A stretch of 64,000 nucleotides of DNA from Cryobacterium levicorallinum (lineage in GTDB: Bacteria; Actinomycetota; Actinomycetes; Actinomycetales; Microbacteriaceae). The stretch spans positions 1-64,000 of the forward strand of contig NZ_SOFE01000008.1 in assembly GCF_004402405.1 (NCBI RefSeq). Direction: 5' to 3'. A program made the position numbers and the translations under genes. The notes under the pieces are model-generated. The model worked only from the letters and a program-made list of their open reading frames with translations, was not told the origin of the DNA and ran no database searches. Below are positions 23,472 through 43,175 of the stretch, one piece after another; position 1 is the first letter of the stretch, and every line of letters starts with the position of its first letter.

Positions 23472-23599
23472 CCCGGTGTTGAGGTTACGCTACGCGAAAG
23501 CGGCGGCGGCGGGCTTCCCTGCTTACCCTCGATGTCTGAGCGAGGAGCGGGTGACCCGCCGACTCCGCGGACCGCCAGCGGAACGCGAGCACATCCCCC

Positions 23600-23662
23600 G
23601 GCCCACCTTAGGAAGCTGGGCCCGTGATAGATCATGGGCCCACTTTCCGGGCCCGGGCCCGG
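23600..23662 (+). repeat. GGGCCC palindromic element, copy 1 (likely bidirectional terminator)
   Basis: First of three near-identical elements (others 39146-39234, inverted, and 43109-43175). It contains GGGCCC-centred arms around GTGATAGATCAT and ends with a GGGCCCGGGCCCGG palindrome. It lies between the 3' ends of convergent genes (23471 and 23677), so it could stop transcription from both sides. Confidence 0.8.
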
Positions 23663-23676
23663 TGCAAATCACATTG

Positions 23677-25176
23677 CTAGGCGACGGGCTCGAGGGCCTC
23701 AGCGGCGAGGATGGCCGGGAAGATGGGCGCGTGCACGCCGGCCATCTCCTCGAGTACCCGAATGACCTGGCAGCTGTAGCCGAATTCGTTGTCGTACCAG
23801 ACGTACAGCACGGCCTTCTGCTCGGTGACGATGGTGGCCAGCCCGTCGACGATACCGGCGCGACGCGAGCCGAGAAAGTCGCTGGAGACGACCTCGGGCG
23901 AGTCAATGTAGTCGATCTGCCGGTGCAGCGAAGAGTGCAGCGACATGGTGCGCAGGTAGGTGTTGAGTTCGTCCTTATCGGTGGCTCCGGCCAGGTTGAG
24001 GTTGAGGATGGCCATCGACACGTCGGGCGTGGGCACGCGAATCGCGTTGCCGGTGAGTTTGCCGGCGAGCTCGGGCAGAGCCTTGGCGACGGCCTTCGCC
24101 GCACCGGTCTCGGTGATCACCATGTTGAGCGCGGCCGAGCGACCACGGCGGTCGCCGGAGTGGAAGTTGTCGATCAGGTTCTGGTCGTTGGTGAAGGAGT
24201 GCACCGTTTCGACGTGGCCGTCGATGATGCCGTAGCGGTCATTGATCGCCTTGAGCACCGGGGTGATCGCGTTCGTGGTGCAGGACGCAGCGGTGATGAT
24301 GCGGTCGCTCGCCAGGATGTCGCCGTGGTTGATGCCGTGCACGATGTTCTTGAGCGCGCCCTTGCCCGGCGCGGTCAACAGCACCCGGGACACTCCGGGG
24401 CATTTCAGGTGCTGCGACAGGCCTTCTTCGTCGCGCCATTTGCCGGTGTTGTCGACGACGATGGCGTCGTGAATGCCGTACTGCGTGTAGTCGACGCTGG
24501 CCGGGTCGCCGGAGTAGATCACCTGGATGAGCGTGCCGTTGGCGAGGATGGTGTTGTTCTCTTCGTCGATGGTGATCGTGCCCTCGAAGGGGCCGTGCAC
24601 CGAGTCGCGGCGCAGCAGGCTCGCGCGCTTCACCAGGTCATTGGCGGATCCGCGCCGCACGACGATGGCCCGCAGACGGAGCCCCTGGCCACCACCGGCG
24701 TGCTCGATCAGGATGCGCGCGAGCAGTCGGCCGATCCGGCCGAACCCGTAGAGCACCACGTCGGTGCTGGAGCGACCGTCCCGTCCGTGCTGGCCGACCA
24801 CATCGGCGAGTTCGCCGCGCAGGTATTCCTCGAGGGTGACTCGGTCGTTCTGCTCGCGAAAGCCGAGGGCGAGGCGGGCCAGGTCGACCGAGGCAGCACC
24901 GAGACCCAACCCGTCGAGGGCCTGCAGAATCGGCAGCGTCTCGTCGAGCGGCAACTCAACATCCGCTATATGACGCGCGAAGCGGTGTGCCTTGATTAGG
25001 CCGATGACCGACTTGTTGACCAGGCCGCGCCCGTAGACGCTCGTCACCACGTTGTTGTCGCGGTAGAGGCGGCCGATCAGGGGAATCATCGCCTCGGCGA
25101 GAGCCTCGCGGTTGCTCCACGTTGCACGGGCACGATCAGCGTCCTGGATCACAGGGTTGCCTTCCTTAACCTTCAT
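23677..25176 (-). CDS. Glyceraldehyde-3-phosphate dehydrogenase, long type
   Basis: The protein has 499 residues. An extra N-terminal region of about 140 residues precedes a normal GAPDH core: NAD(P) fold VVLYGFGRIGRLLARILIEH, catalytic AASCTTNAITPVLKAI with the nucleophile Cys, VHSFTNDQNLID, RRGRSAALNMVITETGAAKAV and WYDNEFGYSCQVIRVL. This about 480-residue form is known in actinobacteria; in Corynebacterium glutamicum a second GAPDH (GapB) of this kind works mainly in gluconeogenesis. It is probably not the main glycolytic enzyme, but that is inferred. It ends next to the palindromic element. Confidence 0.87.
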   Translation of the reverse strand: MKVKEGNPVIQDADRARATWSNREALAEAMIPLIGRLYRDNNVVTSVYGRGLVNKSVIGLIKAHRFARHIADVELPLDETLPILQALDGLGLGAASVDLARLALGFREQNDRVTLEEYLRGELADVVGQHGRDGRSSTDVVLYGFGRIGRLLARILIEHAGGGQGLRLRAIVVRRGSANDLVKRASLLRRDSVHGPFEGTITIDEENNTILANGTLIQVIYSGDPASVDYTQYGIHDAIVVDNTGKWRDEEGLSQHLKCPGVSRVLLTAPGKGALKNIVHGINHGDILASDRIITAASCTTNAITPVLKAINDRYGIIDGHVETVHSFTNDQNLIDNFHSGDRRGRSAALNMVITETGAAKAVAKALPELAGKLTGNAIRVPTPDVSMAILNLNLAGATDKDELNTYLRTMSLHSSLHRQIDYIDSPEVVSSDFLGSRRAGIVDGLATIVTEQKAVLYVWYDNEFGYSCQVIRVLEEMAGVHAPIFPAILAAEALEPVA

Positions 25177-25225
25177 TAGTCAGTATGGCGATATCCCCGG
25201 CCACCCAGGGCACCGGAGTCGTTCC

Positions 25226-25549
25226 TTACTCGTCGAGCGCAAGTTCCTTGGGAAGTTCGAAGTCCTTCGACGCGAGCTCTTCCACGTTGACGTCCTTGAA
25301 GGTCAGCACGCGTACCGACTTCACGAACCGGTCGGAGCGGTAAACGTCCCAGACCCAGACGTCCTTCATAGTCAGTTCGAAATAAAAGTCGTGCTCAGTG
25401 TCACGGCGCACCAACTCGACCTCGTTCGCGAGGTAGAAGCGTCGTTCGGTTTCGACAACGTACTGGAACTGGCCAACGACGTCTCGATATTCCCGGTACA
25501 GGGCCAACTCGACCTCTCGGTCGTAGTCCTCGATTTCGTCTTCTTCCAT
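25226..25549 (-). CDS. DUF2469 family protein
   Basis: This 107-residue acidic protein, EDYDREVELALYREYRDVVG at the start, belongs to DUF2469, a family restricted to Actinobacteria and nearly always found just after rnhB, as here (12-base gap). It has a tyrosine- and charge-rich middle (RRFYLANEVELVRRDTEHDF) and no cysteine or known catalytic motif. No function has been established. ATG at 25549. Confidence 0.92.
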   Translation of the reverse strand: MEEDEIEDYDREVELALYREYRDVVGQFQYVVETERRFYLANEVELVRRDTEHDFYFELTMKDVWVWDVYRSDRFVKSVRVLTFKDVNVEELASKDFELPKELALDE

Positions 25550-25561
25550 GGTGACCTCATC

Positions 25562-26206
25562 TTACAATGAGATTTTCAGCCACGATTTTCGATGTAAAGG
25601 GCTCGGTCCGAGCAGGTCGATCGCGCTCATGTGCGCCGCGCTGCCATAGCCCTTATTCGACGCCCAGCCGTAGCCAGGTTCGTCATCGTGCGCCGCGATC
25701 ATCAGACGGTCGCGGTATACCTTCGCAATAACGGATGCCGCCGCGACCGACCCGCAATCCCGGTCGGCTTTGATGCGGGTCACGACGTTCAGCGGGGTGG
25801 CCAGCGCCTTATTCAACCAGTCGTCACTGCCGTCGAGCAGCACGATGCTGCCGGCCACGTCGACGCCCTGCGCATACAGGTCGGACAGGGCACGCTTGCC
25901 GGCCAGGCCGAGGCAGGCGATGATGCCGAGTTCGTCGACCTCCGCGGCCGAGGCGAGTCCGACAGCCGAGAACGTCGCCCAGGCCGCGGCGAGCGGCGCA
26001 AGAAGTTCGCGGCGCGGCTCGCTGAGCATCTTCGAATCGCGCAGTCCAAGGGGCATGGTCAGAACCGATGCGTTCACCGCGGCGAATCCGACGGCCACCG
26101 GCCCGGCGAGGGCACCGCGGCCGACCTCGTCGCACCCGATGACGAAGCTCGCGCCGCGGTGCAGCAGGTCGAACTCCACGTCGAGGGTGGGATCAGATAC
26201 TGCCAC
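25562..26206 (-). CDS. rnhB: Ribonuclease HII
   Basis: RNase HII removes single ribonucleotides and RNA primers from DNA. The active-site start CDEVGRGALAGPV carries the DE pair; RDSKMLSEPRR and IKADRDCGSVAAASVIAKVYRD contain the remaining acidic residues and the SxxAK motif. Length 214, normal. The GTG start at 26206 shares one base with the lepB stop (TAGTG-like junction), so translation is coupled. Confidence 0.95.
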   Translation of the reverse strand: MAVSDPTLDVEFDLLHRGASFVIGCDEVGRGALAGPVAVGFAAVNASVLTMPLGLRDSKMLSEPRRELLAPLAAAWATFSAVGLASAAEVDELGIIACLGLAGKRALSDLYAQGVDVAGSIVLLDGSDDWLNKALATPLNVVTRIKADRDCGSVAAASVIAKVYRDRLMIAAHDDEPGYGWASNKGYGSAAHMSAIDLLGPSPLHRKSWLKISL

Positions 26207-27003
26207 TACTCGGTGCCCTGCTCGGCCTGCTCGACCTCGCGGAAGACGTCGGGGTAGTCATCGAGCCAGGCCCAATGGGCCAGCGGCCAGCTCACGACCA
26301 GAGCCCGCCCGACGACGTTCTCGACGGGCACATAGCCCTGACCGGCGGTCTCGCCGTTGAACCGGGAATCCTTGGAGTTGTAGCGGTTGTCCCCCATCAT
26401 CCAGAGCGAGTCGTCCGGGATGGTCACGTCGAAGTCGATGTCGGAGACCTTGGCCTCGCCGGCCGGCAGCAGCACGTAGGCGGATTCGTCGAGCGGAACG
26501 TCGTTCACACTCATCTGGCCGAGGGCGTTGCAGCAGACGACGTGGTCGCCGGGCAGGCCGATGACCCGTTTGATCAGGTGGTCGTTACTGTCGGGGGCAG
26601 ACAGGCCCACGACCGAGAGCAGCCAGTCGGCCCCGGCAACGATCGGGTTTTGCACGATCTCGGCCTGCGGCAGCAGCCATCCGCCCGGATCTTTGAATAC
26701 GACGACATCGCCGCGCGTGATCGGGATGAGCTCGGGTTCGAGCTGGTTCACGATGATGCGATCGTCCACCTGCAGGGTGTTCTCCATCGACCCGGACGGG
26801 ATGTAGAACGACCGAATCAGAAAGGTCTTGATCAAAAACGAGATCAGCAAAGCCACCACGAAAATGATCAACAGGTCGCGAATGAACAGCAAGACGCTGC
26901 GCTTCTTGCTGGGCGCCTTCGTACTTCGTGCCATTTTGCTTCGGGACCTCTTCGACTCTGACACCCGATGATCGGACCTGGAGGTGAGCACTTCATCTGT
27001 CAT
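26206..27003 (-). CDS. lepB: Signal peptidase I
   Basis: Membrane serine-lysine peptidase that cleaves signal peptides of exported proteins. The 265-residue protein has a cytoplasmic basic N-terminus (about 1-38), one membrane helix (about 39-62), the catalytic serine in YIPSGSMENTL, IVNQL, the catalytic lysine in LIKRVIGLPGD and a final box GDNRYNSKDSRF. Only one membrane segment is visible. It lies in the conserved rplS-lepB-rnhB-DUF2469 order, but a strong hairpin separates it from rplS. Confidence 0.95.
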   Translation of the reverse strand: MTDEVLTSRSDHRVSESKRSRSKMARSTKAPSKKRSVLLFIRDLLIIFVVALLISFLIKTFLIRSFYIPSGSMENTLQVDDRIIVNQLEPELIPITRGDVVVFKDPGGWLLPQAEIVQNPIVAGADWLLSVVGLSAPDSNDHLIKRVIGLPGDHVVCCNALGQMSVNDVPLDESAYVLLPAGEAKVSDIDFDVTIPDDSLWMMGDNRYNSKDSRFNGETAGQGYVPVENVVGRALVVSWPLAHWAWLDDYPDVFREVEQAEQGTE

Positions 27004-27011
27004 TTAACCGC

Positions 27012-27048
27012 CTGAGCTCCCCATCAGTTTAGGTGATGGGGAGCTCAG
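27012..27048 (-). terminator. Perfect 15-bp hairpin between rplS and lepB
   Basis: CTGAGCTCCCCATCA (27012-27026) pairs perfectly with TGATGGGGAGCTCAG (27034-27048), leaving a 7-base loop. Downstream on the minus strand the bases are GGCGGTTAAATG, so there is no real T-run. It may be a Rho-assisted terminator, an attenuator limiting lepB expression, or an mRNA-end stabiliser for rplS. Confidence 0.6.
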
Positions 27049-27083
27049 TAAGAATCCGGTTGAACCTTGGGTCAGCGCGAAAG

Positions 27084-27425
27084 TTAGCGCTTTTCCTTGA
27101 TCTTGGCCTTCTTGCCACGCAGGTCGCGCAGGTAGTACAGCTTCGCGCGACGAACGTCACCGCGGGTCACGATCTCGATGTGGTCGATGACCGGGGAGTG
27201 CACCGGGAAGGTACGCTCGACGCCGATCTGAAAGCTGACCTTGCGAACGCAGAACGTTTCGCGCACGCCTTCGCCGGAGCGGCCGATGACGACTCCCTGG
27301 AAGACCTGGATACGAGAGCGGGTTCCCTCAATGATGTTGACGTGAACCTTGACGGTGTCGCCGGCACGGAAGTCAGGAAGATCCTTCTTCAGTGATGGGG
27401 CGTCTACCGCGTCGAGAATATGCAT
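27084..27425 (-). CDS. rplS: 50S ribosomal protein L19
   Basis: The 113-residue product matches L19 through its whole length: [73 protein letters not shown] and the basic C-terminus. It is usually the last gene of rpsP-khpA-rimM-trmD-rplS; here a membrane-protein gene lies between it and trmD, and a hairpin follows. Confidence 0.96.
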
Positions 27426-27600
27426 GTTGTTTCGCTCTCTGTACCCGCCACAGGTCGACTACGCTAGGTGCTTCATTCGAAGCAATCAGTATGAGTTGTG
27501 CGCCGCACAAAGCAGGTTCCCCTGTGGCAGAGTCCTGCAGCGGCACAATCGCCTATTCTGCCATGAACGAGGCCCGGCTGCAAAGTCGGGCTCGATTGAG

Positions 27601-28143
27601 TTAGATGCGGTCGCGCTTTTCTTCGATGACGATGACCTCCGGGGTGCCCGTACGGCCAAAGCCGGGCGTTGGCCTGGTCGTCTTCGGCGACACATGGGGC
27701 AGTGGATGCCCCGGCGCGGCCGGTGCAGACTGCCCGCGTGCCGTCTGCTCCACCAGGTCGACCATCGCGCGCATTCGACGCTTGGCGGAGTCGAACAGCT
27801 CCCAGAGTGCAAACCAGAACACGGCCAGCCCGCCGACGATGACCAACACGCTGAGCCAGCCGGCGGCATCCGCGGAAAAGGGGATCGCGATGATGAGGGT
27901 GTGCCAGAGGGTGAGAACGCCGACGTCGGCGTAGGAGACGGCGCGGGTTTCGCGCACCTCTTTGCGCGCAAAGAAAAGGAGGGCGACGAGGAGAAGCCCG
28001 AGGCCGATGAGCACGGCTCCGAAGAAGATGCCCAGAACGGCCCAGGCGCCCGATCCAAAGATCGAGGACCCGACGAGGAGCCAGAGCGGCAGGGCTCCGG
28101 CGGCAATGAATTGCCAGTGGTAGAAGGCGCGGCGGATGATCAC
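27601..28143 (-). CDS. Small polytopic membrane protein, function unknown
   Basis: I do not recognise a family. The 180-residue protein has four probable membrane helices: about 12-32, 36-58, 72-92 and 96-115. A basic loop (DSAKRRMRAMVDLVEQ) and a Pro/Gly-rich cytoplasmic tail ending in EVIVIEEKRDRI follow. It lies 9 bases after trmD and upstream of rplS, so it may be cotranscribed with trmD. The 175 bases between it and rplS contain the rplS start region and no other gene that I can see. Confidence 0.6.
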   Translation of the reverse strand: MIIRRAFYHWQFIAAGALPLWLLVGSSIFGSGAWAVLGIFFGAVLIGLGLLLVALLFFARKEVRETRAVSYADVGVLTLWHTLIIAIPFSADAAGWLSVLVIVGGLAVFWFALWELFDSAKRRMRAMVDLVEQTARGQSAPAAPGHPLPHVSPKTTRPTPGFGRTGTPEVIVIEEKRDRI

Positions 28144-28152
28144 CGCGCCAGT

Positions 28153-28986
28153 TTATCGACGGCGGCTGGGGCTTTGCTTGGCGTTCGCTGGGGGCAGAAG
28201 ATCGGGTGGCATCAGGTCGGGGCGCACCCGTTCGGTGCGTTCGATCTGCTGCTGACGGCGCCAGGTGCTGATGGCGCCGTGGTTGCCGCTGAGCAGCACG
28301 GGCGGTACGTCGAGGCCGCGCCAGCTGGACGGTTTGGTGTAGCTCGGGTATTCGAGCAGGCCGTCTTCGTGAGATTCCTCGACGAGGCTTTCCGGGTTGC
28401 CGACGACGCCGGGGATGAGGCGTCCGATGGCTTCGATCATGGCCATCACGGCAACCTCTCCCCCGTTGAGCACGTAGTCGCCGAGGCTAACCAGGCGCAC
28501 CCGGCCGCGGGCTTCATAGTGGTCGACGACGCGCTGGTCGATGCCCTCGTACCGGCCGCAGCCGAAAATGAGGTGCTGCTCGAGCGAGAGTTCGCGGGCC
28601 ATCGCCTGGGTGAACTGAGCGCCGGCCGGGGAGGGAAAGATGAGGATCGGGCCGTCGTCGGCGGCGTTGACGGCGGTCGGCGTTTCAGTTGCGGCAGCCT
28701 CGGTCGCTACGGCCGCGGCGTCGGTCGCTACAGCTTCGGTCGCTACGGCCTCGGGAGCGGCGCCGAGGATGGCGTCGAGGGCTGCGCCCCACGGTTCGGC
28801 CTTCATGACCATGCCGGCACCGCCGCCATAGGGAGTGTCGTCGACCGAGTGGTGCCGGTCGTGGGTGTGGTCGCGCAGGTTATGCACGCCGAGTTCGATC
28901 AGTCCGCTCTGGCGAGCCTTGCCGAGCAGCGACAGATCGAGCACATCGAAGAATTCGGGAAAAATGGTGACAATGTCGATGCGCAT
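28153..28986 (-). CDS. trmD: tRNA (guanine(37)-N1)-methyltransferase
   Basis: TrmD makes m1G37 in tRNAs and prevents +1 frameshifts; it is essential in most bacteria. The SPOUT fold starts [20 protein letters not shown], with [18 protein letters not shown], the trefoil-knot region [20 protein letters not shown] and the C-terminal [12 protein letters not shown]. Between about 85 and 115 there is an added Ala/Thr/Val stretch ([20 protein letters not shown]) encoded by near-perfect GGTCGCTAC repeats at 28700-28750. ATG 28986 is chosen; an in-frame TTG at 28992 gives no better start. It lies right behind the sirB-like gene instead of rimM. Confidence 0.94.
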
Positions 28987-28992
28987 GGTCAA

Positions 28993-28998
28993 ATTCTA
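28993..28998 (-). promoter_or_regulatory. Possible -10 element for a leaderless trmD transcript
   Basis: TAGAAT on the minus strand lies 6 bases before the trmD ATG; its first three bases are the TAG stop of the sirB-like gene. A leaderless mRNA would result. No good -35 is seen at 16-18 bases. Confidence 0.35.
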
Positions 28999-29850
28999 GA
29001 AGAGTCCGGCGTGCGCTTTCGCCTCAAGGTACCGGCCGACGACCAAATCGACCAGCGGAGCGGGGGCTGGTTCGCCCGGCACCAGCAGTGGAGAGGTGAC
29101 CGACTCGGCACCGGCGCTCTGGGCGCGGGTCAGGTCGAAGAAAAATCCCGGTGCCATCAAGTAGGTACTCACGGTGACGCTGTCGCTGCGGAGGCGGGCC
29201 TCGGTGACGGCGCACGCCAGTCGGGGCGAGGCGGCGGACAAAAAACCGACCGTGACGCGCACGCCGAGGCGCTGCGCCAGCATCTCGCCGATTCGGCGGC
29301 AGTCCTCGACCGCGCGTGTGTCGCTGGAACCGGCAGCGGCGAGGACGACCTCGCGGCCGGGCTGGGCGGTGAATCCGGCGGCGGCGAGCCGGTGCTCGAG
29401 CACATCGATGAGGCGATCATCGGGGCCGAGGGCCCGGGAGACGGTGGTCACGCGGCCGGGCACGCGGGACTCGCGTTGCAGATCGACGTGCACGTGATAG
29501 CCGGCGGAAAGCAGCAGGGGCACCACCACTGCGGCGCGATTCGGGCGCAGCGCGCCGAGGCTGGCCGCGATATCCGGTTGTTGCACGTCAACGAAACCGC
29601 CGGTCACGCTCAGATCGGGGCGCGCGAGCGCGACGGCATCGACGAGGGCGGCAATGGCGGCCTGCCCGTCAGCAGAACTCGTGCCGTGCGAGATGGCGAC
29701 GAGCGCGGCGGGTAGTGCCGTCTGGGGCGCGGCATCCGCTTGATTGCTGCGGGGTCGATCCGCTCGCACCTGGTCGGTGCGAGCCTGGGGGGCGCGAGCC
29801 GGAATGGTTCGCACCTGGTCGGTTCTGAGTCGTTCGCCGAGCAGGGTCAT
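28996..29850 (-). CDS. Sirohydrochlorin chelatase (CbiX/SirB type)
   Basis: Probably inserts Fe(II) into sirohydrochlorin, the last step of siroheme synthesis. The 284-residue protein shows two chelatase halves: the N-terminal LVAISHGTSSADGQ with the metal-binding His, VVVPLLLSAGYHVHVDL with further histidines, and a C-terminal half with LAAAGSSDTRAVEDC. The first 45 residues are an Arg/Asp-rich extension with a duplicated RTDQVR unit. ATG at 29850 overlaps the nirD stop (ATGA), so it is expressed with nirD. A cobalt chelatase role is possible, but nirB, nirD and cobA beside it favour siroheme. Confidence 0.82.
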   Translation of the reverse strand: MTLLGERLRTDQVRTIPARAPQARTDQVRADRPRSNQADAAPQTALPAALVAISHGTSSADGQAAIAALVDAVALARPDLSVTGGFVDVQQPDIAASLGALRPNRAAVVVPLLLSAGYHVHVDLQRESRVPGRVTTVSRALGPDDRLIDVLEHRLAAAGFTAQPGREVVLAAAGSSDTRAVEDCRRIGEMLAQRLGVRVTVGFLSAASPRLACAVTEARLRSDSVTVSTYLMAPGFFFDLTRAQSAGAESVTSPLLVPGEPAPAPLVDLVVGRYLEAKAHAGLF

Positions 29851-30260
29851 GCGGCACTGAGTAGTTCGGGGGCGTGCCGTTTAGTCTCGACGGCGACCTC
29901 GATGAAACCGCCGACCACGCGGGTTTCGTAGGTGTTCAGTACGAGCGTCGGGTTGGTGAAGCATTCTCCGGTGCCGAGATCATAGACCTCTTTGTGCAGC
30001 GGGGAGGCGATGGTGGGGCGGTCGCCCTTGGAGCCGACGATGCCGCGGGCCATGACGTGGGCCTCGGTGTGCGGGTCGCGGTGGTCGACGGCGTAGATTT
30101 CGGTGGGCGAGAGCAGAAACAGGGCGATCTGGTTTTCGCGGATGAGGGCCGCTTCGCCCCAGCTGAGTTCCAGATCGGCCACGGCGCAGGCGCGCTCCCA
30201 GACCAGGGTGGGGCGGGTCAGTGCAACGGTAGGGCGAAACTCGGCGGTTGTCATCGTCAT
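29847..30260 (-). CDS. nirD: Nitrite reductase (NADH) small subunit
   Basis: NirD partners NirB in assimilatory reduction of nitrite to ammonium. The 137-residue protein has the Rieske-like fold (WERACAVADLELSWGEAALI, IYAVDHRDPHTEAHVMARGIVG, IASPLHKEVYDLGTGEC), but the Cys and His pairs that bind a 2Fe-2S cluster are absent, as is usual for NirD. ATG 30260 follows AGGGAG by seven bases. It is transcribed divergently from nirB, in contrast to the usual nirBD order. Confidence 0.9.
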   Translation of the reverse strand: MTMTTAEFRPTVALTRPTLVWERACAVADLELSWGEAALIRENQIALFLLSPTEIYAVDHRDPHTEAHVMARGIVGSKGDRPTIASPLHKEVYDLGTGECFTNPTLVLNTYETRVVGGFIEVAVETKRHAPELLSAA

Positions 30261-30315
30261 GGTGCGCTCCCTGGGTTGTCGCGTTTGTGCGTTGATCCCA
30301 CGGTAGGCGGGCCAT

Positions 30316-30353
30316 ATTTCAACCAGACGCCCCCTATGTTTCCTCGCCGTGAA
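30316..30353 (-). promoter_or_regulatory. Candidate GlnR-type box in the nirD/nirB intergenic region
   Basis: Read on the minus strand: TTCAC-6-GAAAC-6-GGCGT-6-GAAAT. The two GAAA(C/T) half-sites are exactly 22 bases apart, as in the published a-box/b-box layout of actinobacterial GlnR sites (gTnAC-n6-GaAAC). GlnR is known to activate nirB in Streptomyces and Mycobacterium. The second a-box is poor, so this is a candidate only. Confidence 0.5.
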
Positions 30354-30361
30354 ACTCGCCT

Positions 30362-30384
30362 CACAGCGGGGGTGCGCCGCTGTG
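30362..30384. promoter_or_regulatory. Perfect 8-bp inverted repeat, possible operator of nirB
   Basis: CACAGCGG (30362-30369) and CCGCTGTG (30377-30384) flank a 7-base spacer. The site lies 92-114 bases before the nirB start and next to the GlnR-like box, where the NnaR-like regulator encoded downstream could bind. Confidence 0.4.
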
Positions 30385-30475
30385 GGGCTTTCGACCAGCA
30401 CGGGACACACGAGCGACACGAGGGGGAAACTGCCCCGAACTACGCTCACAATTGCCCCGCTTCGAAAGGATGCTG

Positions 30476-33190: not shown

Positions 33191-33194
33191 GCAA

Positions 33195-35242: not shown

Positions 35243-35280
35243 GCCGGGCGGTACCACTCGTGACCGGCGCCTCGCCCTGC

Positions 35281-35338: not shown

Positions 35339-35357
35339 GCCCTGTGAATGGAGCGCG

Positions 35358-36014
35358 TTACGGGCGGTCGGTCTCGAGAGCGGATGCCGCGGCATCCGTT
35401 TCAGAGACCGGTTCGGCCACGGCGTCGGCTGCAGCATCGGCCGGGTCCTCGGGCAGCTCTTCGAGCAGTCCGGGCGGCGGGGTGATGGTGACGATGCCGG
35501 CCTTCACATCGACGCTCGGCACGATGGCCTTCACGAAGGGGATCATGACGTCGCCGGTGGGCGTCTTCACGATCAGCAGATCTTGCGCGGGCATGTGCTC
35601 GAGGCGACCGATGGTGCCGATGCGCACACCGTCACGCATGACGGCGAGCCCGACGAGCTGGTGGTCGTACCAGGCGTCTTCTTCATCCGACTGCTCGGCG
35701 ACGTCCGCGTCGATCCAGAGGATCGCCTTGGCGAGCGTTTCTGCCGTGGAGCGGTCGGGAACATCCTTAAAAAAACCGACCGCGTGCTGGTTATACCAGC
35801 GCAGCTCGACGAGTTCAATCGTCTTGCCGTGCCAGGCCGACCCGGTCGGAACCTGCAGGGTGAACACGGCGCCCGGGACGAAACGTCGTCCCGGGTCATC
35901 CGTGAACAGTTCGAGCTTGATTGCTCCCTTGAGGCCGTGAGCCTTAGTCAGGCGCCCCACCCGTAATTGCTGGGTGCGGTCCTTCTCGCTATCGTTCACC
36001 GTCGTGTCGTTCAC
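35358..36014 (-). CDS. rimM: Ribosome maturation factor RimM
   Basis: Needed for late assembly of the 30S subunit head, where it binds S19. Family motifs: QLRVGRLTKAHGLKGAIKL, FTLQVPTG, WIDADVAEQSDEEDAWYDHQL, GTIGRLEHMPAQDLLIV and MIPFVKAIVPSVDVKAGIVTI. The start is probably the GTG at 36014, five bases after the khpA stop; longer readings run over khpA. The 218-residue product has an Ala/Asp/Glu-rich C-terminal tail (about 182-218), whose DNA contains the perfect 18-bp palindrome CGGATGCCGCGGCATCCG at 35381-35398. It follows khpA and rpsP, but trmD is displaced by the nitrite block. Confidence 0.92.
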   Translation of the reverse strand: MNDTTVNDSEKDRTQQLRVGRLTKAHGLKGAIKLELFTDDPGRRFVPGAVFTLQVPTGSAWHGKTIELVELRWYNQHAVGFFKDVPDRSTAETLAKAILWIDADVAEQSDEEDAWYDHQLVGLAVMRDGVRIGTIGRLEHMPAQDLLIVKTPTGDVMIPFVKAIVPSVDVKAGIVTITPPPGLLEELPEDPADAAADAVAEPVSETDAAASALETDRP

Positions 36015-36018
36015 TGAA

Positions 36019-36255
36019 CTAGAAATCGGTGTCGACGACGTCGACACGTACGCGTCGACCATCGGCCAGAGCCGCAACGAGGGTGCGCAGGGCCTTGGCT
36101 GTGCGACCGGCACGACCAATGACCCGGCCGAGATCCTCGGGGTTCACACGAACCTCGAGCACCTCGCCTCGGGGCGAGTTCTTTTCTGCAACGTGCACAT
36201 CATCGGGGTGATCAACGATCCCCTTGACGAGGTGTTCGAGCGCGGGAGCAAGCAA
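36019..36255 (-). CDS. khpA: KH-domain RNA-binding protein KhpA
   Basis: A 78-residue single KH domain protein: LEHLVKGIVDHPDDVHV, LEVRVNPEDLGRVIGRAGRTAKALRT with the GxxG loop (GRAG), then VRVDVVDTDF. KhpA binds RNA and, in Gram-positive bacteria, works with KhpB (Jag/EloR) in cell elongation. It lies between rpsP (3 bases upstream) and rimM (5 bases downstream), the conserved place. Confidence 0.93.
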   Translation of the reverse strand: MLAPALEHLVKGIVDHPDDVHVAEKNSPRGEVLEVRVNPEDLGRVIGRAGRTAKALRTLVAALADGRRVRVDVVDTDF

Positions 36256-36258
36256 CAG

Positions 36259-36663
36259 TTACGCCTCTTCGGTTGCTTCGGCAGCAACCTCGGGGGCCTT
36301 GACGACCGGCTTCTCGGCCTTGGGCTTGAGAACCGGCTTCTTCTTCTCGTCAGCGACGAAAGCGACCTTCGGTTCCTTCACCTTGACGGTGTTCTTAGCG
36401 TTCTTGTCGCCCTTGAAGATGCCCCAGTCGCCCGTGAGCTTGAGGAGTGCAGCAACCTGCTCGGTCGGCTGAGCGCCGACGCTCAGCCAGTACTGCGCAC
36501 GCTCGGACTTGACCTCGATGACCGAGGGCTCCTCCGTGGGGTGGTAGATGCCGATTTCTTCGATGACACGACCGTCGCGCTTGGTGCGCGCGTCGGCAAC
36601 GACAATGCGGTAGTACGGTGCACGGATCTTGCCCATGCGCTTCAGACGGATTTTGACAGCCAC
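36259..36663 (-). CDS. rpsP: 30S ribosomal protein S16
   Basis: [20 protein letters not shown] begins a typical S16, followed by [21 protein letters not shown] and [16 protein letters not shown]. The core ends near residue 90; the rest is a Lys/Ala/Glu-rich tail ([20 protein letters not shown]) common in actinobacteria. First gene of rpsP-khpA-rimM; its promoter must lie in 36664-36800. Confidence 0.96.
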
Positions 36664-36794
36664 AATTCTCCAGTGTTAATTCGTTGTTTGGCGAACCTTG
36701 GGCCGTGAGCGTGGGGGCACACTCGGCATAAGCTCTATAGGATCACGTTGCACCGAGATAGAGGGTCGGGCACAACGGATCGCGACTAATCATT

Positions 36795-36823
36795 CTGTCA
36801 GAGATTGCGGGCATTGTGATAAT
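36795..36823 (+). promoter_or_regulatory. Sigma-A-like promoter of the GCS2 gene
   Basis: CTGTCA (36795-36800, 4/6 to TTGACA), a 17-base spacer and GATAAT (36818-36823, 5/6 to TATAAT, preceded by TGT like an extended -10). The start codon lies 41 bases downstream. Confidence 0.55.
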
Positions 36824-36864
36824 CGGACCTCAACGACTTTTACCGGCCCACTCAAGGAGCCCCC

Positions 36865-38001
36865 GTGCCACTGGAATTCGCCCGATCCGCCCGATCCACC
36901 GTGGGCATCGAGTGGGAGGTCGCCCTCGTCGACCGCTCGACCGGCGATTTGGTCAATATCGCCGACGTAGTGCTCGACGCCCTGCGCGGCCCCGACGGCT
37001 CGGCCCACCCAACGATCACCGGCGAGCTGCTGCTCAATACGGTCGAGCTGGTTTCGGGCGTGCACACCACCGTAGGCGGTGCGGTAGCGGATGTCGCCGA
37101 CCAGCTCGGCGAGGTGCGCCGCGTGCTTTCGGGACGCGAGGTCGACCTGATCTGCAGCGGATCGCATCCGTTTGCGCAGTGGTTCGACCAGACCGTCACC
37201 GACAAAGCCCGCTATCACAAGCTCATCGACCGCACCCAGTGGTGGGGCCGCAATATGATGATCTGGGGAATCCACGTGCACGTCGGCATCGAGGACAAGG
37301 CCAAGGTCATTCCGATCATGAACGGCCTGCTCACCTACGTGCCACACCTGCAGGCGCTGAGCGCGTCGAGCCCGTTTTGGGCCGGGGTCGACACGGGCTA
37401 TGCCAGCAACCGCTCGCTCATGTTCCAGCAGCTGCCGACCGCTGGATTGCCCTGGGACCTGCCCGATTGGGAAGCCTGGGAGCGCTACGTCGACGACATG
37501 GCCGTGACCGGCATCATCGAGGACGTCACCGAGGTGCGCTGGGATATTCGCCCGTCGCCGCGCTGGGGCACAATCGAGATTCGAGTCTGCGACGGCGTCT
37601 CGACGTCCGTGGAGCTCGGCGCGATCGCCGCGTTCATCCAGTGCCTGGTCGAGTGGATGTCCACCCGCCTCGACGCGGGGGAAGACGTTCCGCGCATGCA
37701 GCCGTGGTTCGTGCGCGAGAACAAGTGGCGGGCCGCCCGCTACGGGCTCGACGCCGAGATCATCCTCGATGCTGCGGGCGCCGAATGCCTGGTAACGGAT
37801 GATGTGCGTCGCCTCATCGAGACCCTCTCCCCCGTCGCCGAGCGGCTCGGCTGCCTGCCGGAGCTGCTCGGACTGCACCGCATCATCGATGAGGGCGGGA
37901 GCTACCAGCGGCAGCTCGCCGTCGCGGCCACGCATGACGGCAGCCTGCCGGCGGTGGTTGCGGCGCTCAGCCACGAGCTCGCGGAGGGGCTCGGGAGCTA
38001 G
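36865..38001 (+). CDS. Carboxylate-amine ligase, GCS2 family (YbdK/EgtA-like glutamate-cysteine ligase)
   Basis: The 378-residue protein starts at a GTG preceded by AAGGAG and has the GCS2 fold: STVGIEWEVALVDRSTGDLV, ITGELLLNTVELVSGVHT, CSGSHPFAQWFDQTV, the active-site strand WGIHVHVGIED and GTIEIRVCDGVSTSVELGAI. Such enzymes join glutamate to cysteine with ATP, though many YbdK homologues have weak activity, and related genes serve ergothioneine synthesis. No partner gene is adjacent, so the product is uncertain. Confidence 0.82.
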   Translation: MPLEFARSARSTVGIEWEVALVDRSTGDLVNIADVVLDALRGPDGSAHPTITGELLLNTVELVSGVHTTVGGAVADVADQLGEVRRVLSGREVDLICSGSHPFAQWFDQTVTDKARYHKLIDRTQWWGRNMMIWGIHVHVGIEDKAKVIPIMNGLLTYVPHLQALSASSPFWAGVDTGYASNRSLMFQQLPTAGLPWDLPDWEAWERYVDDMAVTGIIEDVTEVRWDIRPSPRWGTIEIRVCDGVSTSVELGAIAAFIQCLVEWMSTRLDAGEDVPRMQPWFVRENKWRAARYGLDAEIILDAAGAECLVTDDVRRLIETLSPVAERLGCLPELLGLHRIIDEGGSYQRQLAVAATHDGSLPAVVAALSHELAEGLGS

Positions 38002-38137
38002 CGCGTTGGCTGCACGCGCGCCCAAGCCGTGCGGTCGCCACGCGCCGGTTCGCTGCACGGGCGCCCCTTGTTGGCTCGCGCGCGGCGCACACCAGCCGCG
38101 CAAGCAGCGCGGGGCCGCGCAGCAGCATCCGCTCGGG

Positions 38138-38926
38138 TCAGGCGTTCTTGCTGTCGCGCCAGGCCAGCCAGTCGGTGGCCTGGCCGAGGTCGTAGTCGGG
38201 GCCAAAGATTCCTACGGTGAACAGGCGCGTGCCGAGGTCGTAGAGCGCGTCAGCGTCGTCCACCGTGCGGCCGCGCAGCTCGGTGGAGATCTCGATCTCG
38301 CTCAGGTCGCGGCCGACCTCGTCGCACCAGGCGCCGAGTACTCCGAGCTTGTGCTCGAGCACCTCGGGGTTGGAGAACGAGTGCCAGATATCGGCGTGCT
38401 GGGCGACGATGCGCAGGGTTTTCTTTTCGCCGCCACCGCCGATGAGCACCGGGATGTCGCGGGTGGGCGGCGGGTTGAGCCTGGCCCAGCGGGCCTCGAT
38501 GCGGCCCAGGCTGGCATCGAGGGCGTTCAGCCGAGTGCCGGGAGTGCCGAACTCGTAGCCGTATTCCTGGTAGTCGCGCTCGAACCAGCCCGCGCCGGTG
38601 CCGAAGATGAAGCGACCGCCGCTGATGTGGTCGATCGTGCGCGCCATGTCAGCCTGCAGGTCGGCGTTCCGGTAGCTGTTGCAGTTGACCAGGGCGCCGA
38701 ACTCGAGGGTCGTGGTCTGCTCGGCCCAGGCGGCGAGGATGGTCCACGACTCGAAGTGCAGACCATCGGGCTCGCCCGTGAGCGGAAAGAAGTGGTCCCA
38801 GTTGAAGGCGATGTCGGCGCCTCGGGCCTCGACCTCGGTGAGGGTGTCGCGAATCTTGGAGTATTGGGCGTGCTGCGGGGCGATCTGCACACCGATGCGC
38901 ACGTTGTGGTTCGCCGTCGAAGTCAT
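38138..38926 (-). CDS. LLM-class F420-dependent oxidoreductase
   Basis: This 262-residue TIM-barrel protein of the luciferase-like monooxygenase superfamily starts VRIGVQIAPQHAQYSKIRDT and has ADIAFNWDHFFPL, GALVNCNSYRNADLQADMART, IDHISGGRFIFGTGAGWFERD, PVLIGGGGEKKTLRIVAQHADIWH-type segments and a late WLAWRDS. The pattern fits the actinobacterial F420-dependent branch rather than the FMN luciferases. Substrate unknown. The 330 bases upstream to 39256 carry only repeats. Confidence 0.85.
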   Translation of the reverse strand: MTSTANHNVRIGVQIAPQHAQYSKIRDTLTEVEARGADIAFNWDHFFPLTGEPDGLHFESWTILAAWAEQTTTLEFGALVNCNSYRNADLQADMARTIDHISGGRFIFGTGAGWFERDYQEYGYEFGTPGTRLNALDASLGRIEARWARLNPPPTRDIPVLIGGGGEKKTLRIVAQHADIWHSFSNPEVLEHKLGVLGAWCDEVGRDLSEIEISTELRGRTVDDADALYDLGTRLFTVGIFGPDYDLGQATDWLAWRDSKNA

Positions 38927-39022
38927 GCGTCCAGCCTAAGACCGCCCACGGTTCGTGCCCCGGCGCCCAGGCCCCCGGCCTCCAGGCCTCCAGGCCTCCA
39001 GCGCCGACCGAAGGCCACTGCA

Positions 39023-39121
39023 CGCGCACAACTCCTGCCATTTCTTCGGCGATCACCGCAGATCCCAGTAATTTGCACGGAACGGGCTTCTGGCGCTCAC
39101 GATTTGCAGGAGTTACGCGCG
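39023..39121. repeat. Long-spaced inverted repeat of a CGCGC..AACTCCTGC unit
   Basis: In the 330-base gap 38927-39256, CGCGCACAACTCCTGC (39023-39038) is repeated in inverse orientation at 39106-39121 with 14 of 16 bases matching, 67 bases apart. It resembles the GCGGGAnTTGCGCC units at 35281-35338. No gene is seen in the gap. Confidence 0.6.
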
Positions 39122-39145
39122 GTCCACGGACTCAGCGAGCAGATT

Positions 39146-39234
39146 GGGCCCACCTTCTGCGACCGGGCCCGGGCCCGGAAACTGGGCCCATGATCCATCA
39201 AGGGCCCGCTTCCGTAAGGCGGGCCCGGCCCACC
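39146..39234 (-). repeat. GGGCCC palindromic element, copy 2 (inverted), downstream of ffh
   Basis: Reverse complement of the elements at 23600 and 43109, slightly longer, with GGGCCCACC at one end and its near-inverse GGGCCCGGCCCACC at the other. It lies 22 bases after the ffh stop and can fold into several GGGCCC-paired stems, so it probably terminates ffh. Confidence 0.8.
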
Positions 39235-39256
39235 AAAGGCTTTCCCCAAACGGATA

Positions 39257-40846
39257 CTACCGGCCGAGCATTTTCTGCAGCGCGGCCATTTCCTCTTCGG
39301 TGGGGCCGCCGGCCTTGCCCTTACCCGGCTGGGCGCCGGAGCCGAGGCCGAAACCGGAGCCGGCGGCATCCGCTTTGGAAGACTCACCGGCAGACTTAAC
39401 GCCCGAGGCAATCGCGGCGTTCTCGGCAGCGCGCTTGGCTGGGTTGCCCGACTTGGAGCCCTTCTTCTTGGCCACCTGCTTGGGCTTGCCGCCGTAGCCG
39501 GCACCGGGAATGGGGCCCATGCCGGGGATATTGGGCATACCACCCTTGGCGACTGTCTTCATCATCTTGGCGGCCTGTTCGAAGCGCTGCACAAGCTGGT
39601 TCACCTCGGTGACGGTCATGCCCGAACCCTTCGCGATGCGCATGCGGCGCGATCCGTTGAGCAGTTTCGGGGTGGTGCGTTCAAGCTTGGTCATCGACTG
39701 GATGATGGCCTCGGTGCGCACGATCTCGCGCTCGTCGAAGTTCTCGAGCTGCGCCTTCATGGCGCCGGCGCCGGGCAGCATGCTCATCATCTTCTTGATC
39801 GAACCCATGTTGCGCAGCTGCTGCATCTGGCCGAGGAAGTCGTCGAGGGTGAAGGAGTCGGTCGCGAACTTCTCGGCGACCTTGCGGGCCTCGTCCTCAT
39901 CGAAGGCACCCTGCGCCTGCTCGATCAGGGTGAGGATGTCACCGAGGTCAAGGATGCGACCGGCCATGCGGTCCGGGTGGAACGGCTCGAAGTCGTCGAG
40001 TCCTTCACCGGTCGAGGCGAACATGATCGGGCGTCCAGTGAGCGAAGCGACCGACAGGGCGGCGCCACCGCGGGCGTCACCGTCGAGCTTGGTGAGCACG
40101 ACGCCGGTGAAGTCGACGCCGTCCTGGAAGGCCTTCGCCGTGGCGACGGCGTCCTGGCCGATCATGGCGTCGATGACGAAGAGCACCTCGTCTGGATCGA
40201 TCGCCTTGCGAATGTTGGCGGCCTGCTTCATGAGCTCCGCGTCGACACCGAGACGTCCGGCGGTGTCGACGATGACGACGTCGTGAACCTTCTGCAGGGC
40301 GTACTTCACGCCGTCGCGGGCGACCTTGACCGGGTCGCCGACACCGTTTCCGGGCTCGGGCGCGTAGACGGCGACACCGGCCTGTTTAGCGACGACCTCG
40401 AGCTGGGTGACCGCGTTGGGGCGCTGCAGGTCGGCGGCGACGAGCAGCGGGGTGTGGCCGTCTTTGGCGAGCCACTTCGCGAGCTTGCCGGCGAGGGTGG
40501 TCTTACCGGCACCCTGCAGGCCCGCGAGCATGATGATGGTCGGCGGCTTCTTGGCGAATTCCAGCCGGCGCTGCTGGCCGCCGAGAATCGTAATGAGCTC
40601 GTCGTTGACGATCTGCACAACCTGCTGGGCCGGGTTCAGCGCCTTGCTGACCTCGTCGCCGAGGGCGCGCTCGCGCACCTTGCCGGTGAAATCCTTGACG
40701 ACCTCGAGGGCGACGTCGGCGTCGAGCAGGGCGCGACGGATCTCACGAACGGTGCCGTCGACATCCGCTGCGCTGAGCTTGCCCTTGGTGCGGAGGTTTT
40801 TGAACGTCTCGGCAAGACGATCTGAGAGGTTTCCAAAAGTTGCCAT
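39257..40846 (-). CDS. ffh: Signal recognition particle protein Ffh
   Basis: GTPase of the signal recognition particle that targets nascent membrane proteins. The 529-residue protein has the N domain, the G domain (GLQGAGKTTLAGKLAKWL, VIVDTAGRLGVDAELM, LTKLDGDARGGAALS, TGEGLDDFEPFHPDRMAGRI) and a methionine-rich M domain (MGSIKKMMSMLPG, IAKGSGMTVTEVNQLVQRFEQ). The C-terminus is extended by a Lys/Gly/Ala-rich tail (about 460-529), usual in actinobacteria. Its receptor gene ftsY lies about 3 kb away. It ends at palindromic element copy 2. Confidence 0.96.
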   Translation of the reverse strand: MATFGNLSDRLAETFKNLRTKGKLSAADVDGTVREIRRALLDADVALEVVKDFTGKVRERALGDEVSKALNPAQQVVQIVNDELITILGGQQRRLEFAKKPPTIIMLAGLQGAGKTTLAGKLAKWLAKDGHTPLLVAADLQRPNAVTQLEVVAKQAGVAVYAPEPGNGVGDPVKVARDGVKYALQKVHDVVIVDTAGRLGVDAELMKQAANIRKAIDPDEVLFVIDAMIGQDAVATAKAFQDGVDFTGVVLTKLDGDARGGAALSVASLTGRPIMFASTGEGLDDFEPFHPDRMAGRILDLGDILTLIEQAQGAFDEDEARKVAEKFATDSFTLDDFLGQMQQLRNMGSIKKMMSMLPGAGAMKAQLENFDEREIVRTEAIIQSMTKLERTTPKLLNGSRRMRIAKGSGMTVTEVNQLVQRFEQAAKMMKTVAKGGMPNIPGMGPIPGAGYGGKPKQVAKKKGSKSGNPAKRAAENAAIASGVKSAGESSKADAAGSGFGLGSGAQPGKGKAGGPTEEEMAALQKMLGR

Positions 40847-40925
40847 GATGCGTTTAGTTTAACCGGTGGCTGCTGCTACTTCGAAACGGATGCTGAGGCG
40901 CGGTTCCGTCAAATTCGGGCGAGCG

Positions 40926-41525
40926 TCAGTTCTGCGCCGCCACACTCGGTGCAATCAGCCGCTCGACCGCACGAACGACGTTGGCTCGGCGAACCGCGAT
41001 TGCCGTCACGTCCGGAGGAGGGCCCCCGTGCGCGAGCACCGCCCCGGGCTCGTGAACCCAGGCTGAGGCGATGCCGAAGATGAGCGTCATGAGCTGCACC
41101 GGTTGCCAGGAAGCATCGACCCGACCGGCTGTCTGTGCCAAGCGGATGCGCCGCACCTGTTCGTCCCGATAGCCCAGCATGACCTCGAGGGCCGGCAGCC
41201 AGGTACCATCGGTCTCGAGGCGGGCCCAGTCGATCATGCGCAGGTGGTCACCGTGCAGCATTCCGTGATCGAACAGCGCTCCGGCGAAGGCCGGCACGTC
41301 ATTGTCGGTGAGCACGGCATCGCTCGCGAACTCGCGCAGGTTGAGCTCCAACACCTCGAGGAACAGCTGCTGCTTGTCGGAGTAGTAGGCGTAGAGGCGT
41401 TCCTTGCTCGCCGCGGCGCTCTTGGCGATGCGGTCGATGCGGGCCCCGGCTAGTCCGTAGGCGGCGAATTCGGTGCGCGCCGCCTCAAGAATGCGGGTCT
41501 GGGGGTCTGCTCCGTCGCGTGCCAT
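40926..41525 (-). CDS. TetR-family transcriptional repressor
   Basis: The 199-residue protein has the TetR helix-turn-helix at about 8-55 (TRILEAARTEFAAYGLAGAR, IAKSAAASKERLYAYYSDKQ) and a ligand-binding helical C-terminal domain with a WARLE segment. ATG 41525 gives the family start; longer readings are shadows over the MFS gene. It is divergent from the MFS exporter at 41587 and an inverted repeat lies between the starts, so it most likely represses the exporter and itself. Confidence 0.88.
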   Translation of the reverse strand: MARDGADPQTRILEAARTEFAAYGLAGARIDRIAKSAAASKERLYAYYSDKQQLFLEVLELNLREFASDAVLTDNDVPAFAGALFDHGMLHGDHLRMIDWARLETDGTWLPALEVMLGYRDEQVRRIRLAQTAGRVDASWQPVQLMTLIFGIASAWVHEPGAVLAHGGPPPDVTAIAVRRANVVRAVERLIAPSVAAQN

Positions 41526-41535
41526 GTTTTCACTA

Positions 41536-41554
41536 TAGTTTACAAAACAAACTA
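41536..41554. promoter_or_regulatory. Probable TetR operator
   Basis: TAGTTT (41536-41541) and AAACTA (41549-41554) form an inverted repeat with a 7-base A-rich spacer. It lies 10 bases from the regulator start and 33 bases from the exporter start, in the only AT-rich patch of the gap. Confidence 0.6.
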
Positions 41555-41586
41555 GTTCGTTCGGTTTGCACGATAGAGTCATTGTT

Positions 41587-43080
41587 ATGCCCGGTATCAG
41601 TACAAACCAGTCCAGTTCTGCCCCGCCCGCGTCGGCGGCCACCGCGCCCCACCCACGAAAGTGGTTGCTGCTGGCCATCGTGGCGCTCGCCCAGCTCACC
41701 GTCGTACTCGACGGAACCATCGTGAACATCGCGCTCCCCCAGGCACAGACCGCGCTCGGCATGAGCGACGGCGAGCGCACCTGGGTCGTCACGCTGTACT
41801 CGCTTGTCTTCGGCGCGCTGCTGCTGCTCGGCGGGCGTATTGCCGACTTCTGGGGCCGCAAACGCTCCTTCATCGTGGGCATGGCCGGGTTCGCCATTGC
41901 CTCGGCCCTCGGCGGCGCCGCCCAGAGCACCTGGGAGCTACTCACCGCCCGCGGCCTGCAGGGCCTGTTCGCCGCGCTGCTCGCGCCAGCCTCGCTCGCC
42001 CTGCTCACGGTCAACTTTCCCGGCGGCAAGGACCGCATCAAAGCCTTCGCCGTCTACGGCGCGATCGCCGGCGGCGGCGCGGCGGTCGGCCTCATCCTCG
42101 GCGGCGTGCTCACCGAGTACGCAAGCTGGCGCTGGTGCCTCTACGTGAACGTGCCGATCGCCATCGTGGCGATTGCGGCCGCCATCCCGGTCGTTCGCGA
42201 GAGCAAGGCACACGGAAATACCCGATATGACGTGCCGGGGAGTATTCTCGTGGCACTCGGCCTCGGATCCCTGGTATTCGGCTTCGCGCAGGCCGAGAGT
42301 GGGTGGGCCAGCTCGCCCGTGCTCGTTTGCCTCCCGCTCGGACTGGTGTTGCTCGTGCTGTTCGTGCTGGTGGAAAAGCGGTCGAATCATCCGCTGCTGC
42401 CGCTACGCATTATGGCAAACAAGGTACGCGGCGGAGCCTTCCTCACGGCGCTGCTCTCGGGTGCTGCGCTGCTCGGAGGGCTGCTGTTTCTCACCCTGTA
42501 CTTTCAAATCGTGCTGGGCTACACCCCGATTCAGTCCGGGCTGGCTTCCCTGCCGATGACCGCGACGATCATGATCGGTGCCGGCGTGCTGTCGAAGTTT
42601 CTGGCGCGTACCGGCGTGCGCATTCCGATGACCGTCGGACCGATCGTCGGCGCGGCCGGGCTGCTCTGGATGACTCAGATCACGGTGAACGGCAACTATT
42701 CGCTCGAGGTGCTGCCGGGGCTCATTCTGCTCGGCGCCGGACTCGCCATGATCTTCGTGCCGCTGCAGAACGTGGCTCTGTCGGGAATTGCCGAGCATGA
42801 TGCCGGTGCGGCGAGCGCTGCCGTGACTGCGATGCAGCAGATCGGCGGTTCGCTCGGAACCGCCCTGTTCACCGCGCTGTACACCGCTGCCGTGAGTTCG
42901 TACCTGATCGGTAAGGTTCCCACCGAAGTCGTTCAGCTGGGCGCTCTCGTGAGCGGATACCAGTCCGCCTTCCTGTGGGCGGCCATCATTATCTTCGCGG
43001 CGGGGCCCATCGCCTTCTTCCTGGTGCGCCCGCGCAAGGAAGACCTGCTCGGCGCGGGGCAGGCCGCACACCTCGGGTAG
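41587..43080 (+). CDS. MFS drug exporter, DHA2 (14-helix, EmrB/QacA) type
   Basis: The 497-residue protein has about fourteen membrane segments. Conserved MFS motif A-like GGRIADFWGRKRSFI lies after helix 2. The DHA2 start LDGTIVNIALPQAQTAL carries the membrane-embedded Asp of motif D1, and the motif-C-like GAIAGGGAAVGLILGGVL marks an antiporter. It should export cationic or amphiphilic toxic compounds with proton influx. ATG 41587 is preferred over an in-frame ATG at 41566. It is controlled by the adjacent TetR gene by inference and ends near palindromic element copy 3. Confidence 0.88.
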   Translation: MPGISTNQSSSAPPASAATAPHPRKWLLLAIVALAQLTVVLDGTIVNIALPQAQTALGMSDGERTWVVTLYSLVFGALLLLGGRIADFWGRKRSFIVGMAGFAIASALGGAAQSTWELLTARGLQGLFAALLAPASLALLTVNFPGGKDRIKAFAVYGAIAGGGAAVGLILGGVLTEYASWRWCLYVNVPIAIVAIAAAIPVVRESKAHGNTRYDVPGSILVALGLGSLVFGFAQAESGWASSPVLVCLPLGLVLLVLFVLVEKRSNHPLLPLRIMANKVRGGAFLTALLSGAALLGGLLFLTLYFQIVLGYTPIQSGLASLPMTATIMIGAGVLSKFLARTGVRIPMTVGPIVGAAGLLWMTQITVNGNYSLEVLPGLILLGAGLAMIFVPLQNVALSGIAEHDAGAASAAVTAMQQIGGSLGTALFTALYTAAVSSYLIGKVPTEVVQLGALVSGYQSAFLWAAIIIFAAGPIAFFLVRPRKEDLLGAGQAAHLG

Positions 43081-43108
43081 CCCGGTTCGGGGCTGCCGGC
43101 GCTCACCT

Positions 43109-43175
43109 GGGCCCACCCTAAGGAACCGGGCCCACGATAGATCATGGGCCCGGTTTCCGGGCCCGGGCCCGGAAA
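43109..43175 (+). repeat. GGGCCC palindromic element, copy 3 between convergent genes
   Basis: It can fold into two stems: GGAACCGGGCCC pairs across ACGATAGATCAT with GGGCCCGGTTTCC, and a perfect 22-bp palindrome centred on GGGCCC-GGGCCC follows at 43154-43175. It lies between the stops of the exporter (43080) and the DUF2004 gene (43183) and probably terminates both. Confidence 0.82.

Follow-up and report, generated by a model that had tools for sequence, protein, structure and literature searches.

How do short palindromic repeats come to occupy dozens of positions in a bacterial genome? The spread of repetitive extragenic palindromic (REP) sequences is usually ascribed to REP-associated tyrosine transposases (RAYT enzymes), and Higgins, McLaren and Newbury reportedly suggested in 1988 that REPs spread via gene conversion. 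Palindrome-associated transposable elements (PATEs), palindromic elements derived from IS200/IS605, carry subterminal hairpins and a conserved unpaired foot. PMC3733652 defines REPs as palindromes of 20-40 bp whose foot carries the tetranucleotide GTAG or CGTC, and places them in convergent and unidirectional gaps between genes. Here we describe an element that occurs three times in the first 64,000 nucleotides of contig NZ_SOFE01000008.1 of Cryobacterium levicorallinum, the whole stretch of DNA analysed and hereafter the window. Like the REPs, bacterial interspersed mosaic elements (BIMEs) and REP doublets forming hairpins (REPINs) of E. coli and Pseudomonas, the Cryobacterium element is a short palindromic sequence present in dozens of copies, intergenic, and located after genes or between convergent or codirectional ones. 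Unlike them, it has no RAYT that we could find, has no GTAG/CGTC foot, forms a longer unit of two palindromes, and shows both close pairs in the same orientation and two interchangeable subfamilies. We lean toward the view that it is a REP-like palindromic repeat without a RAYT, largely restricted to Cryobacterium, that is tolerated after genes and partly maintained by gene conversion.

The family is large in its own genome and common in its genus. A covariance model trained on 27 copies from this genome (R1) returned at least 109 matches at E ≤ 1, with both strands of each palindrome counted and 150 of 2650 first-look candidates scored; in the stretches fetched from this genome, 101 matches at E ≤ 0.01 reduce to 59 non-overlapping places. 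The initial annotation had taken the copies in the window for a mobile or amplified unit and had named a genome with just three copies as the outcome that would speak against its REP and terminator idea. The genome itself has 59 places, and 36 of the 57 genomes searched in the genus match at E ≤ 0.001; an amplified unit is thus borne out, as a family of palindromes that is mostly intergenic and extends little beyond the host genus. Two genomes of the genus gave at least 84 matches each, where per-genome counts rest on up to 84 scored candidates, and 19 more distant members gave 1-39 weaker matches each; the final model (R2) at E ≤ 0.1 found no match in 38 loci of more distant genomes of the genus. 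An exact pattern for subfamily A, described below, was found in a collection of genome contigs at 13 loci, all 13 from Cryobacterium. At the family level 7 of 249 genomes matched, five from the same genus and two from genus g64, and at the order level 4 of 396, three from the same genus and one (G442) that we judged spurious from its alignment. The g64 genomes have a single ungapped R1 match each (G063, L341:264-339, 43.6 bits; G182, L342:273-348, 45.0 bits), for which the R2 scores drop to 34.2 and 20.3 bits. With fold z-scores of −9.3 and −4.9, both are strong nested hairpins with a size and layout like those of the Cryobacterium element and without the double GGGCCC; the first stands where two open frames that face each other end, and the second overlaps open frames. 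They may be distant kin or a related family, or mere hairpins of similar size. No earlier description surfaced in titles and abstract openings on REPs in Microbacteriaceae, palindromic repeats in Cryobacterium, or RAYT and REP in Actinobacteria. In PMC7381226 the word stem "palindrom" appears in two passages, each time for clustered regularly interspaced short palindromic repeats (CRISPR), and the main text of the RepRanger paper (PMC12306157), whose table includes three Actinomycetota genomes, contains neither "Cryobacterium" nor "GGGCCC". Rfam at gathering scores gave no match within the window.

The unit is about 65-75 bp long. A conserved tail, GGGCCCACCTTA, is followed by two palindromes that overlap, the left arm of palindrome 2 being common to palindrome 1. 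Copies fall into subfamily A, GGGCCCACCTTA-NGGAANCGGGCCCATGATNNATCATGGGCCCGNTTTCC-GGGCCCGGGCCCGG, and subfamily B, GGGCCCACCTTATG-ANCACGGGCCCAGTTTATAAACTGGGCCCGTG-GACGGGGCCCGGGCCCCGTCC, which are equal in length and layout and differ in their hairpin sequences, these being palindromic in both. Alignment A3 holds 80 copies (56 A and 24 B, of which 26 A and 5 B come from the C. levicorallinum genome) in 80 columns without a gap. Pairing in a fold of two hairpins holds in 89.8% of cells across these 80 copies; double-changed cells number 195, compared with 86 for shuffled alignments, and the covariation score is 0.242 compared with 0.090, both values also exceeding those of slid controls. A nested alternative is formed in 90.5% of cells, with 148 double-changed cells against 61. 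Columns 53 and 54 co-vary with columns 24 and 23 and also with columns 74 and 73, indicating that one arm can serve either palindrome; the left arm of palindrome 2 is likewise able to pair with the segment that precedes palindrome 1. We also note one place (L113:15270-15400, C21:118271-118394 in the same genome) where four tandem 19-bp units, GGGCCCACCCTCGGGAACC, built of the element tail, lead into a single copy. The copies in the window and their parts are as follows.

23595..23670, plus strand: copy 1, subfamily A, between a gene of the F420H2-dependent quinone reductase family and GAPDH
39155..39230, minus strand (reverse orientation): copy 2, subfamily A, about 30 bp past the ffh stop codon
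39142..39186, plus strand: incomplete tail in forward orientation, GGGCCCACCTTC, joined to copy 2, 33.2 bits with R1 (39139-39218, 37.4 bits with R2)
43105..43180, plus strand: copy 3, subfamily A, with an MFS transporter gene on one side and a minus-strand gene on the other
43109..43121, plus strand: conserved 5' tail of copy 3, GGGCCCACCCTAA, A3 columns 8-20
43127..43152, plus strand: palindrome 1 of copy 3, CGGGCCC...GGGCCCG around ACGATAGATCAT, A3 columns 26-51, by pair counts
43153..43176, plus strand: palindrome 2 of copy 3, GTTTCCGGGCCCGGGCCCGGAAAT, A3 columns 52-75

All three elements are present where the initial annotation had put them. R2 scores 86.4 bits at 43102-43181 (plus), 75.9 at 23592-23671 (plus) and 75.7 at 39154-39233 (minus), and its top match anywhere else in the window reaches just 12.2 bits (E 0.33). 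The three copies are among the rows used to build the models, so high scores are expected, and independent support comes from copy number and folds. On both strands, all three copies fold more stably than every one of 200 shuffles, with z between −3.0 and −5.3, and GGGCCCGGGCCC, with at most one mismatch, occurs four times in the window against 1.11 expected, a count that none of 100 shuffles reached. The stretch 39146-39162, which the initial annotation had included as the left part of copy 2, reads as a likely remnant of a forward-oriented copy fused to the full reverse copy.

At one well-aligned site, subfamily A stands in some genomes exactly where subfamily B stands in others, in the same register; the evidence elsewhere is thinner. 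This is the site of copy 3: G274 carries A there, G254, G297, G279 and G283 carry B, and the alignment is gapless over 116 columns, flanks included. In all five sequences a C replaces the usual first G of the tail; of the 80 rows of A3 only 7 share this change, and six of those come from this site. More widely, 28 of the 59 places (those outside the window with a full tail and a long enough flank) were compared with four relatives. Among the 112 comparisons, 17 lacked an alignable flank, 15 were not syntenic on the far side, and 80 were syntenic, with A at 15 sites, B at 19, remnants at 12, possible remnants at 7 (reclassified from 34 sites first classed as "none") and no element at 27. We also placed the three window sites on a tree of 17 species built from three coding stretches (branch supports 60-100), with subfamily labels set by eye, G282, G291 and G272 degenerate, and solo palindromes (G259, G274, G262) taken as B. 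The copy 3 site holds A or B in 16 of 17 species and needs at least 5 changes against a shuffled mean of 5.5; the GAPDH site (13 of 17) needs 4 against 4.65, and the ffh site (13 of 17) 2 against 1.93. Since these counts lie near the shuffled means, subfamily identity at a site does not detectably follow descent. At the ffh site the A of C. levicorallinum and the B of its relatives are in opposite orientation, and this is thus not an exchange in register. In two relatives the GAPDH site holds a solo hairpin made of the B-type palindrome 2 only (L178 of G274 and L181 of G259). Finally, eight pairs of copies in the same orientation lie 103-160 bp apart (four in L139 and one each in L142 of G193, L146 of G254, L154 of G279 and L333 of G078), and in six of the eight, as judged by eye, both copies share uncommon variants, mostly with unlike spacers.

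The exchange at the copy 3 site would most simply be read as ectopic gene conversion. The element was amplified to dozens of copies per genome within one clade, and we propose that copies are kept and rewritten through ectopic conversion between them, perhaps provoked by hairpin cutting or by replication stalling at the hairpins. Copies would survive mainly after genes, where they would do least harm, and whatever the copies may do to the 3' ends of transcripts, be it pausing, protection or weak termination, would be secondary and optional. The bolder claim that the family spreads and persists without its own transposase, purely by host recombination at hairpins, with the subfamilies overwriting each other at inherited sites after genes, strikes us as doubtful. 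A large REP-like family with no RAYT-type enzyme found in the genus and with in-register replacement of subfamilies at an orthologous site would be a natural system in which to test the old idea of gene conversion.

Several observations weigh against this proposal. Conversion is read from its outcome, which could be mimicked if copies inserted repeatedly at a single base, or if an ancestral tandem of A and B lost one or the other member. The left flank (24 bases before the tail) matches at 16 or more positions in 3 of 16 orthologous pairs of different subfamily against 4 of 18 orthologous pairs of the same subfamily, by an ungapped and insensitive measure of flanks that change fast. No clean insertion site, precise empty site or target-site duplication could be read for the element among the sites listed of the 80 syntenic ones in four relatives. 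Much of the covariation signal is the contrast between A and B, which may amount to very few events. Counts of double-changed pairs and of further pair types do not clearly rise above shuffles. Double-changed pairs number 9 for the two-hairpin fold against 9.1 in shuffles, with 30 further pair types against 30.0, and 8 for the nested fold against 8.2, with 32 pair types against 29.8. Among the 27 A copies of the C. levicorallinum genome a score of 0.100, compared with 0.076, beats all 500 shuffles, only two cell counts follow it, weakly, double-changed pairs number 4 against 3.1, and the RNAalifold covariation term is −0.02.

Where do the copies lie? They favour intergenic DNA, the 3' ends of genes, and convergent gaps. 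In 420 kb of DNA from the same genome, which is 86% coding, a copy is present in 22 of 48 convergent gaps of at least 30 bp and in 28 of 192 other gaps (odds ratio 4.96, p 1.2e-5), and divergent gaps have one in 4 of 54 cases (odds ratio 0.24, p 0.004). Only 3 of the 59 places lie mostly within a called gene, and 47 have the 3' end of a gene no more than 100 bp away. These counts support the initial annotation's placement of the family at gene 3' ends. The background gaps come from the same 37 sources (the window and 36 stretches fetched for holding a match) and are to that extent a biased sample. Gene calling relied on codon usage and overlooked the quinone reductase gene (23022-23471); copy 1 therefore entered the counts as codirectional, and they probably understate the convergent share. 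The strand of copies relative to that of genes showed a tendency in convergent gaps and nothing clear in codirectional ones by a hand count, and we do not claim it. In the window itself, copies 1 and 3 lie between convergent genes and copy 2 follows ffh, as first described. The neighbouring genes are these.

23022..23471, plus strand: 3' portion of the F420H2_quin_red gene that precedes copy 1 (PF04075, E 6.5e-35 over 23022-23468)
23677-25176, minus strand: GAPDH gene, flanking copy 1
39257..40846, minus strand: ffh (SRP54; PF00448/PF02978/PF02881)
ending at 43080, plus strand: MFS transporter gene upstream of copy 3
43183-43686, minus strand: gene beyond copy 3, without a Pfam match at E ≤ 0.001

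A bias toward 3' ends and convergent gaps, together with a GC-rich hairpin just 3' of genes that folds very stably on both strands, is also what one would see if the copies were bidirectional intrinsic terminators, whose hairpins end the transcription of both convergent genes and which selection keeps and spreads. Unrelated long hairpins, as judged by eye, stand at the same ffh and GAPDH gene ends in more distant members of the genus that lack the element (L159, L161, L192, L195), and PMC8355165, which has a section titled "Presence of poly A/U trails is not necessary in genomes", proposes clusters of hairpins as terminators. However, in neither orientation is there a T-tract (U-tract) after the stem; next to the double GGGCCC end the flank is rich in A and purines, the wrong side for a terminator, with A at 35-55% over the first 8 positions in the 56 A copies; and a scan of 38900-43400, which covers copies 2 and 3, placed no terminator-like site on either. 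Orthologous sites without the element mostly have no replacement hairpin: the mean fold z at 24 "empty" sites, some of which hold remnants, is −0.29 (two below −2), against −3.67 for 28 elements of the C. levicorallinum genome and −0.06 for 24 coding controls, and the 17 sites still empty after reclassification average −0.27 by hand (one below −2). In one relative, by eye, the convergent stop codons stand 7 bp apart with no element between them. Like stem-only or clustered-hairpin terminators, the element places stable hairpins directly past stop codons; unlike them, it is a sequence-conserved amplified family that is missing at many orthologous sites. The initial annotation's idea of an element doubling as a bidirectional terminator is weakened by these results. 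Stem-only termination by the element is possible, and we regard terminators kept and spread by selection as an unlikely explanation of the family. Strong hairpins after genes in GC-rich actinobacteria are thus not necessarily conserved terminators.

Transposition offers other routes. As dispersed intergenic palindromes with a high extragenic copy number and the convergent and unidirectional bias that PMC3733652 gives for REPs, the copies could be classical REPs or REPINs moved by a RAYT (TnpA-REP). This reading is already largely refuted and we consider it very improbable: Y1_Tnp (PF01797), the family of the RAYT-type transposases, was found in none of the 57 genomes of the genus, the C. levicorallinum genome included, in a search whose controls were positive in 5 of 14 known genomes; the foot of the element is GGGCCCACCTTA and not GTAG or CGTC, CGTC being present within the stem in B and missing in A; and the eight close pairs read by eye in relatives are all in the same orientation, and so not like the inverted REP pairs of REPINs. 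In L121 of the C. levicorallinum genome, close copies are present in both orientations. The term REP-like in the initial annotation therefore holds for how the element works, as dispersed intergenic palindromes, and not for membership, and the RAYT-type transposase it had thought worth looking for is absent. The absence of Y1_Tnp likewise separates the element from the PATEs, which it resembles in its subterminal hairpins and conserved unpaired foot. Miniature inverted-repeat transposable elements (MITEs), which have inverted-repeat ends, are small, non-coding and dispersed like the Cryobacterium element, and the element could be a non-autonomous remnant of an insertion sequence on whose GGGCCC-type ends a non-Y1 transposase acts. 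It is a defined unit with GGGCCC at both ends, found in both orientations and present or absent between species, and its palindromes leave these ends ambiguous as terminal inverted repeats. The lack of readable target duplications or precise empty sites and of any cognate insertion sequence, in a search limited to PF01797 among transposase families, and the absence of copies from viral, phage and plasmid collections at the sensitivity used, make this origin quite unlikely. Inverted copies about 1.24 kb apart in G193, G274 and G294 were considered as possible ends of a transposase unit, and this was rejected for G274, the only one with open reading frames listed, where the pair flanks an ordinary reading frame of 377 amino acids. 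Dispersal through an RNA copy, as in short eukaryotic retro-elements, would account for the fixed internal polarity, the RNA-like structure with alternative pairings and the A-rich 3' flank; no target duplications were read, replacement in exact register better fits gene conversion between DNA copies, and we find RNA-templated dispersal scarcely credible.

Other repeats were met in the same DNA. A second, unrelated inverted-repeat family has arms like CGCATAACTCCTGCAATTT and AAATTGCAGGAGTTATGCG that flank a variable middle; it occurs in the window at 39023-39121 and also at L110:6060-6157, L115:5586-5684 and L137:1827-1913, with lone arms in L123 and L136. It is present at no fewer than six places in the 420 kb and adjoins ffh in two relatives (L094, L147 and L148 are listed). 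Finally, base content predicts 4.8 occurrences of GCGGATGC/GCATCCGC in the window where 28 are present, an approximately six-fold excess, and within called genes GCGGATGC lies in frame 0 in 71 of 95 cases.

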